Below are positions 158 through 49,240 of a stretch of 49,293 nt of DNA, in pieces. A program made the position numbers and the translations under genes. Source of the stretch: Candidatus Azobacteroides sp. (GTDB taxonomy: Bacteria; Bacteroidota; Bacteroidia; Bacteroidales; WRGA01); contig JAJQEC010000068.1 in assembly GCA_021201815.1 (NCBI GenBank), positions 1 through 49,293 on the forward strand. The letters are read 5' to 3'. Position 1 is the stretch's first letter. Each line of letters starts with the position of its first letter. The notes under the pieces were generated by a model, which saw nothing but the letters and a program-made list of their open reading frames with translations, made no database searches and was not told the origin of the DNA.

Positions 158-197
158 CAGCTTCCCGTAAAAAACACCCGGAAAACTTGACTTTCCC

Positions 198-347
198 TCA
201 AAAAAGCAGTATCTTTATATCCCGAGGATAGACCATGTGATAAATGTATTCAGGGGCATTAAAAAAGCCCTGATACCCTTCACCAGCCTCTTGCAGGATG
301 TCCTCCCTTACTTCCGCAAGGAAACATTTTAATCTCCATTTGGGATT
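198..347 (-). pseudogene. Possible coding remnant, about 45 codons
   Basis: On the minus strand one frame stays open for about 45 codons, ends at TGA (198-200), and reads like real protein, including AEVREDILQEAGEGYQGFF and HMVYPRDIKILLF. It has no ATG before an upstream stop. The local GC is higher than in surrounding intergenic DNA. It could be the C-terminal scrap of a degraded gene. I do not recognise the family, and a chance open frame cannot be excluded. Confidence 0.25.
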
Positions 348-357
348 TCATCGTCTG

Positions 358-511
358 ACATATGTGAGACGAACGCCCCACATATGTAGAACGATCGTCT
401 CACATATGTGGGGCGTTCGTTCCACATATATGCAACGATAACATTATGCTTTCATTTGTACGACATTGGCCTTTCATTTGTATGACATTACGCTTTTATT
501 TATCTAACTTC
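358..511. repeat. 22-bp-register palindrome array 1
   Basis: The palindrome ACATATGT starts at 358, 380 and 402, and a one-base variant ACATATAT at 424, so the spacing is exactly 22 bp each time. The register continues with a different unit: CTTTCATTTGTAYGACATT starts at 449 and 471, and a decayed copy (CTTTTATTTATC) at 493, again 22 bp apart. Between the ACATATGT cores lie smaller symmetric centres (CGAACG, CGATCG, CGTTCG) offset by 11 bp. As a result 370-419 is one large inverted repeat with CGAACGCCCCACATATGT as its left arm. The repeat is too short and too variable for a CRISPR. Function unknown. Confidence 0.8.
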
Positions 512-587: not shown

Positions 588-1192
588 ATAAAAGCGAAAT
601 ACGATGTGTATGAGATGCCGGTTGCCGGTGAAGATAAAGGGAAAAAACAGTATTGTGCCCGGCTGGTGCCTTCAGGAACAGTAAATATAAAGCAACTGAC
701 TGAAAAACTTCAATATGGACGGTCCATCACGTTGGTAGAGATCCAGGGAGTGCTTGCCGGCTTAATCCACGAATTGGAGGTTGCCCTGCAGCAGGGAGAA
801 CGCATTCACCTGGACGGGCTGGGGTATTTCCGGATGAAGATCAGCAGTGAACCGGTGAAGATCCGGAGAAAATGCGGGCGGAGTATGTACGGTTTAAATC
901 CATTGCTTTCCTTCCGGAAAAGAGCCTGAAAAAGAAGCTGGCCGGGACGAAGTTTATCCGTTCTCCCAGGAAGAACCATTCCCAAAATCATTCTGAGGAA
1001 ATCATGAAGGAAAAACTGGCTTCTTATTTTCTGGAGCATCCTTTTATTACCCGCGCGGAATTCCAGAAGTTATGTGGTTACACAAAAAACATGGCGCTCC
1101 AGAAACTGAATGAGATGATCAAAGAGGGGAAATTAAAAAAGGAAGGAATAAACCGTTTCCCGGTATATGCGCCGATAAAAGGGAAGAAGTAA
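588..1192 (+). pseudogene. HU-family (HU-related, TIGR01201-like) DNA-binding protein with C-terminal winged-helix-like extension, broken
   Basis: Read through one frameshift this would be a protein of about 200 residues. The first two thirds match the Bacteroidota HU-related family: AKYDVYEMPV, YCARLVPSGTV, GERIHLDGLGYFRM, then in another frame RAEYVRFKSIAFLPEKSL. About 65 basic C-terminal residues (ITRAEFQKLCGY, ALQKLNEMIKEGKLKKEG) look like a winged-helix domain. There are two lesions. Homology runs upstream to codon ATA at 588, where the family would have ATG. A single missing base near 858-862 would restore ...EPVKDPEKMRAEY...; as it stands the first frame ends at 929. Fallback starts are GTG 606 or ATG 615. 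A -1 slip at GAAAATG (868-874) is a less likely way to make the full protein. It lies directly downstream of palindrome array 1. A sequencing error at the frameshift is possible. Confidence 0.7.
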
Positions 1193-48470: not shown

Positions 48471-48501
48471 TTGCCAGATACGGTAAAATTAGTTATATTT
48501 G
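48471..48501 (+). promoter_or_regulatory. Promoter of the small membrane protein gene
   Basis: TTG (48471-48473), 20 bp, then TATATTTG (48494-48501). It lies 24 bases before the ATG at 48526 and is one of the best plus-strand matches in the window. Confidence 0.65.
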
Positions 48502-48828: not shown

Positions 48829-48914
48829 AAGGACTAGCGAATATTTACATTTACCTGCTTTCTTCCTGTTTTATAATAAATATTTCTCTTATTTTTTCAT
48901 TGAAAATATAAAAA

Positions 48915-49016
48915 TGACGCTGCGTCGACTTCCGGATGACGCTACGTCGTTTCGAAAATGACGTAGCGTCGTCAAAAAAACGACGTAGCGTCGTTCAAAA
49001 ATCGACGTAGCGTCAT
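48915..49016. repeat. 22-bp-register palindrome array 2
   Basis: Five copies of a 14-bp unit start at 48915, 48937, 48959, 48981 and 49003, exactly 22 bp apart. The core is GACGNNNCGTC: GACGCTGCGTC in copy 1, GACGCTACGTC in copy 2, GACGTAGCGTC in copies 3-5. Copy 2 is the reverse complement of copies 3-5. Spacers of 8 bp are mostly A-rich; the second has TTTCGAAA centred about 11 bp from the neighbouring cores. This is the same geometry as array 1 (358-511) with an unrelated core. Function unknown. Confidence 0.85.
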
Positions 49017-49240
49017 TCAAAAACGGCTTAAAAGCTAAAAATAACTGTTTTTGATAGTCATTATTTTGATTTTCCGAAAGAAAAACCATCCTCCTAATGA
49101 AAATAATATTTAACAAGCACTCGATATGAGCCATAATATCTAAATAAAAATTTAACAAATAAGCTATTTTATAGAGCTTCGTTTTTCATTTAATATAACG
49201 GTATCTTATCTTTTGTATGCACCCAAAGTCAGGCAGCGTA

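Follow-up and report, generated by a model that had tools for sequence, protein, structure and literature searches.

Cooperative operator and centromere arrays, such as the AspA centromere, ParR/parC and TubR/tubC, consist of regularly spaced sites on one face of the DNA, located beside the gene of the protein that binds them. These are single-locus systems, and they are built on proteins with folds other than that of HU. In Bacteroidales, a family of HU-like proteins (HU_rel/HU-HIG) is expanded, and neither the family models nor the literature that we searched gives its DNA targets or its purpose. Burroughs et al. reportedly proposed in 2017 that the HU-HIG expansion of Bacteroidetes recognises invasive elements. 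Among intergenic repeats, the closest described system is the BrickBuilt MITE of Porphyromonas gingivalis, a multi-copy intergenic element with 23-nt tandem units and predicted long stem-loops (PMC4596501). Copies of BrickBuilt hold 1-22.8 units and have IS5-like terminal repeats, and 1 of 19 adjoins a gene of family PF00216 (PMC4596501).

Here we describe a palindromic array in a stretch of 49,293 nucleotides from Candidatus Azobacteroides sp. (the window, C149 in our contig numbering), together with a large family of palindrome arrays, with a step of 21-23 bp, that lie beside HU-like genes across gut bacteria of the order. No description of a palindrome array adjoining an HU-HIG gene was found in the literature searched, and the pairing seems to be previously undescribed.

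Results

The window array consists of five copies of the core GACGNNNCGTC (Table 1). The first-pass annotation had counted the five cores correctly, with each start placed 1 bp too low (the true first start is 48916), and the step that it gave, exactly 22 bp, holds for all starts (48916, 48938, 48960, 48982 and 49004). Exact matches to GACGNNNCGTC in the 49-kb window are these five alone; when one mismatch was allowed, nine matches were found against 3.9 expected from shuffles. The core centres of units 1-5 read CTG, CTA, TAG, TAG and TAG. Thus, as annotated earlier, copy 2 is inverted relative to copies 3-5 (CTA against TAG), and the centre of copy 1 is a third variant; the centre flips, with the 22-bp register unchanged. 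Each core is flanked by Y on the 5′ side and R on the 3′ side, and the fuller consensus of the unit is (A/G)A(C/T)GACG(C/T)(A/T)(A/G)CGTC(A/G)TT.

A sixth, degenerate unit, suggested earlier at about 48895-48907, did not hold up: the sequence concerned, TTTTCATTGAAAA (48894-48906), is centred on 48900, one base off the register position of 48899, contains no core and is non-dyadic in the paralogues. We also rejected a CRISPR array, because the gaps are 11 bp long, degenerate and partly shared, whereas CRISPR needs unique spacers of ~30 bp.

Table 1. Features of the window that are discussed in the text
Feature	Position	Strand	Remarks
Promoter-like site of the ACATATGT-type element	187..217	+	TTG 187-189, TATCTTTA 210-217; in aligned copies
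ACATATGT-type sister array	350..431	+	four dyads, 22-bp step; different family
Tail of the ACATATGT-type element	432..501	+	directly repeated 22-mers
HU-HIG (HU_rel, DNABII) gene after the ACATATGT-type array	591..1192	+	split: 606-929 and 872-1192
Repeated element common to window, C117 and C56	48460..49170	+	promoter-like site, leader, array, downstream block
Bacteroidales-type promoter-like site	48471..48501	+	TTG 48471-48473, 20-bp spacer, TATATTTG 48494-48501
Small ORF P0001, 100 aa	48526..48828	+	in leader; probably non-protein-coding
GACG dyad array, five units	48913..49017	.	22-bp step; kept in three paralogous loci
GACGNNNCGTC cores	48916-48926, 48938-48948, 48960-48970, 48982-48992, 49004-49014		
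Conserved block 3′ of array	49097..49156	.	AAAATAATATTTA ... CTAAATAAAAATTTAA; paralogue alignment

The core pair at 22-bp spacing was found at four loci of the genome, on contigs C149 (window), C117, C56 and C8. All four have five cores, and C8 has two extra degenerate ones. The window, C117 and C56 loci are paralogues over ~700 bp, with ~35-40% divergence and many indels outside the array, which is the best-conserved stretch of their alignment. The upstream TTG-N20-TATATTTG, which is promoter-like by the Bacteroidales promoter consensus, is kept in both paralogues. Read by eye in the alignment, the arrays of C117 and the window appear shifted by one unit, suggesting that units can come and go with the total remaining at about five. 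The 100-aa ORF of the leader had been a candidate membrane-protein gene, a reading that we rejected. No Pfam match was found for it, its paralogues have 36-40% protein identity with no conservation of the C-terminus, and substitutions are even across codon positions 1, 2 and 3 (for example, 0.37, 0.34 and 0.38); because of this evenness, P0001 is probably non-coding.

The C8 array begins ~70 bp after an HU-HIG gene and sits just before a terminator-like hairpin. No homology was found between its leader and that of the three other copies, which have the array alone in common with it. The window array is an array-only, 'orphan' copy, its sole HU-HIG-linked relative being C8, where the identical core adjoins the HU-HIG gene. 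That gene is not intact, being frameshifted with two in-frame stops in the assembly. The frameshifts of the HU-HIG genes of C8 and of the window may reflect decay or an error of sequencing or assembly, and the window array may now be without a working partner, or may be bound by another protein.

The window contains a second array, of the ACATATGT type, which, as noted in the first-pass annotation, has an unrelated core and exactly the same 22-bp step. The idea that two arrays of the same geometry but unrelated cores represent a class of element was strongly borne out by many further arrays in the same genome, unified by the HU-HIG gene. We found at least 24 ACATATGT-type arrays with variable ACNNNNGT cores and 8 ACCACTNNAGTGGT-type (ACCACT) loci. 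Roughly ten single arrays with yet other cores were also found, almost all of them next to HU-HIG genes; a 278-kb sample from 20 other contigs of the genome also contained additional 22-bp arrays with other cores. Array-only copies exist for at least three array families, that of the window array included. The ACATATGT family combines ACNNNNGT cores with a second dyad, CGNNCG, and its pattern has 43 matches in the source genome, whereas none of 148 other Bacteroidales genomes has more than one. The 24 loci that were read have a promoter-like site, a leader of ~150 nt, the dyads (four in 22 loci, three in 2) and a tail of direct 22-mers; 7 of the 8 ACCACTNNAGTGGT loci have four cores. In the ACNNNNGT family, unit 2 is the reverse complement of unit 4 across variable sequence, far above the level of shuffles (z=6), as observed at loci L132-L148 and L051-L055 and at 350-431 of the window. 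A pseudoknot reading of these units (1-3 and 2-4) was rejected, as the 2-4 pairing alone stands. A frequent REP-like palindromic repeat (AAAGGTACTTCCCTTC.., CCTTTGGCTTCGCCAAA..) is present at 1-180 of the window and near many arrays (including those of C8, C15, C20, C49, C56 and C119) and contig ends.

The C8 copy adjoining an HU-HIG gene was the key observation, and we scanned the surroundings of the HU-HIG genes. The linked genes match HU-HIG (Pfam PF18291) or HU_rel (NCBIfam TIGR01201), of the DNABII superfamily. In the AlphaFold model of the C136 HU-HIG protein (mean pLDDT 89), a winged helix follows an HU/IHF-like fold; Foldseek matched the model to 4fmr (Bacteroides vulgatus BVU_2165), HU and IHF, and the winged helix to AspA. 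Of the 21 HU-HIG matches in the genome, 18 are to genes that are full-length or nearly so. We applied a fixed criterion for an array (period 20-24, at least 30 of 44 matches, not of low complexity, within 600 bp and with no gene overlap). By this criterion, an array accompanies 15 of the 18 genes, against 8 of 164 sites taken at random in this genome (p=1e-13). The step beside the genes is 21-23 bp, and most of the cores differ; examples are GAACTACGTAGTTC (23 bp), GGGGCGCCCC and AAAGCNGATNNGCTTT (21 bp). When dyad symmetry was also required, the counts were 12 of 18 and 5 of 164. The same-genome null is conservative, because the arrays at its random sites are for the most part members of the ACNNNNGT family.

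In six other genomes, an array was found at 16 of 34 HU-HIG loci (13 dyadic) versus 2 of 338 random sites (0 dyadic; p=7e-17), and, by the same criterion, at none of 18 canonical HU loci. Since the criterion had been set while viewing the six-genome data, we ran a fresh test on 28 HU_rel loci from 28 other genomes of the order, chosen by HMM score independently of array presence. Half of them (14 of 28, 11 dyadic; p=6e-16) have an array, and the step in this set is 22 bp in 13 arrays and 21 bp in 2. Outside the source genome, about half of the HU-HIG/HU_rel genes are without an array by the criterion. The first-pass annotation had also proposed a search of Bacteroidales intergenic DNA for palindromes of any kind spaced by 22 bp; such arrays are common beside HU-HIG genes and rare at random, with no dyadic array in 335 kb of other genomes.

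Neither exact core family (GACGNNNCGTC, ACATATGT) is present in the two other genomes of the genus. A scan of genome contigs for the exact core gave terminator-like pairs in one Bacteroidaceae MAG (RGIG6920) and four further matches in GC-rich genomes, apparently by chance; the exact window core was also matched in two viral contigs. In RGIG6920 (L042:7040-7074 and L045:4747-4781), the core TGACGTAGCGTCA forms an inverted pair, 22 bp apart, between convergent genes. In the same-genus genome G001, an ATPase-like gene is preceded by a palindromic array with 23-bp units, ATTCATTTTAAATGAAT (L109:17631-17751), and no HU-HIG gene was seen near the array. Among the ORFs near a 22-bp GACGTGTCGTC repeat in G060, read by eye, there was no recognisable HU-HIG, and this repeat may be a coincidence. 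In G025, five near-identical HU-HIG proteins at separate loci (L217-L221) have no detectable array, possibly representing a recent expansion.

The array cores co-diverge with the HU-HIG proteins, weakly and with clear statistical support (Mantel test of core versus protein divergence at 27 loci; r=0.21, p=0.001). The three HU-HIG genes with a linked ACNNNNGT array group as sisters in the HU-HIG tree, and the ACCACT-linked gene is adjacent to them; the two kinds of array have a CGATCG-like second dyad in common. The HU-HIGs of C131 and C12 are sisters, and both of their arrays have a 21-bp step and AAAGC..GCTTT; five close HU-HIG paralogues of G025 all have 21-bp arrays. The C8 clade includes C14, whose array has the same half-site, AACGAC/GTCGTT. 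The side of the array also follows the tree: in the winged-helix group most arrays lie upstream of the gene, and in the C8 clade most lie downstream. However, C96, C151b and C113 are close HU-HIG relatives, yet their arrays are different or absent, and, given these, array and protein could be independent.

Discussion

We think it probable that the arrays are tandem sites for dimers of HU-HIG (HU_rel) proteins, located beside the protein's own gene and dispersed through the genome. HU-HIG would be a branch of the HU/IHF (DNABII) family that has become sequence-specific, with one dimer on each palindrome. The 22-bp step, two helical turns, would place four or five dimers on one face of the DNA, where they would bind together as one nucleoprotein block; both the binding and its cooperativity we infer. 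An HU-HIG gene tends to have a core of its own beside it, either 5′ or 3′, which points to control of its own expression or to a mark on the locus. Certain cores are dispersed as well, as array-only copies with promoter-like sequences, which may regulate their neighbours, serve silencing or be passive MITE-like copies. A broader generalization, which we put forward tentatively and think somewhat doubtful, is that each HU-like protein of Bacteroidales has a palindromic 'address' of 4-5 dyads at its gene and in copies elsewhere, and that the two co-diverge and turn over quickly, so that a single genome would hold a dozen or more nucleoprotein networks, for the most part separate. Such networks would stem from a protein family commonly regarded as tolerant of sequence.

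The arrays might instead be MITE-like intergenic repeats with an internal minisatellite, similar to BrickBuilt, non-autonomous and with no dedicated recognising protein. Their copies are indeed intergenic and dispersed, with leader, array, tail and promoter-like sequences, and BrickBuilt likewise has 23-nt repeats, a leader, a tail and promoter activity (PMC4596501). We regard this explanation as unlikely, given the near-constant number of units in the GACG, ACNNNNGT and ACCACT families, the invariant spacing within each family, the lack of terminal inverted repeats in the alignments of GACG and ACATATGT-type copies, and the linkage to HU-HIG in many genera, which a neutral minisatellite does not predict. 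Arrays of operator or centromere type that serve some other protein, for instance a partition factor or repressor that has HU-HIG genes merely among its targets, would also account for dyads at two-turn spacing, which suits many cooperative DNA-binding proteins, and the match of the HU-HIG winged helix to the centromere-binding AspA, though generic to winged helices, points the same way. However, one genome has many different cores, which lie next to separate HU-HIG paralogues and in part follow the tree of these proteins. This points to the HU-HIG protein itself, and we consider a different protein quite improbable. Least credible, and very improbable in our estimate, is a cluster of transcription terminators at gene ends: the TGACGTAGCGTCA pair of RGIG6920 resembles a bidirectional terminator with the identical core at the same spacing, and the C8 array lies next to a terminator-like hairpin, but the array units are not followed by T runs, come in fives and in many cases lie upstream of genes.

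The array could also act as RNA, being transcribed from the promoter-like site ~400 bp upstream and folding into long hairpins with a role in stability, processing or regulation. The predicted RNA folds of the arrays are very stable (-54 to -66 kcal/mol, z -6.5 to -11.8), and the reverse complementarity of units 2 and 4 in the ACNNNNGT family is in keeping with such a role. High stability is expected, though, because any palindrome array must fold well, and both strands do so about equally, a few kcal/mol apart. The pairing of units also differs in each GACG paralogue, and no Rfam match above the gathering score was found for the window array. On the gene sense strand, the non-Watson-Crick positions of the dyads are A.C in 67 cases and G.U in 61, about equally often, and in the ACNNNNGT family A.C mismatches are commoner than G.U. 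The absence of a G.U bias indicates that the symmetry is kept in duplex DNA rather than in RNA, and a hairpin needs neither exact spacing nor R/Y-symmetric degeneracy; we therefore think an RNA element quite unlikely.

If the arrays are HU-HIG sites, the targets of many members could be read from the genome, and the function of a large, neglected family would become testable. This would also show the DNABII family giving rise to a range of sequence-specific systems, and it would account for a type of intergenic repeat that is otherwise classed as a minisatellite or MITE.

Compared with the known systems, the genes described here match the models of the HU-HIG/HU_rel family, with a winged helix added in one group; PF18291 and TIGR01201 cover the protein only, whereas the adjacent palindrome array is a feature seen here. 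Unlike the arrays reported here, which are palindromic, the published 23-nt consensus of BrickBuilt has no obvious palindrome; by sequence comparison, its repeat, AGAYCATARTATCCTCTCRTRTG, and the 22-bp dyad of the window have unrelated cores, and its unit number is variable, in contrast to the five cores at all four GACG loci. The AspA, parC and tubC arrays differ in another respect, since here many HU-like paralogues, with separate cores and dispersed copies, are found in one genome.
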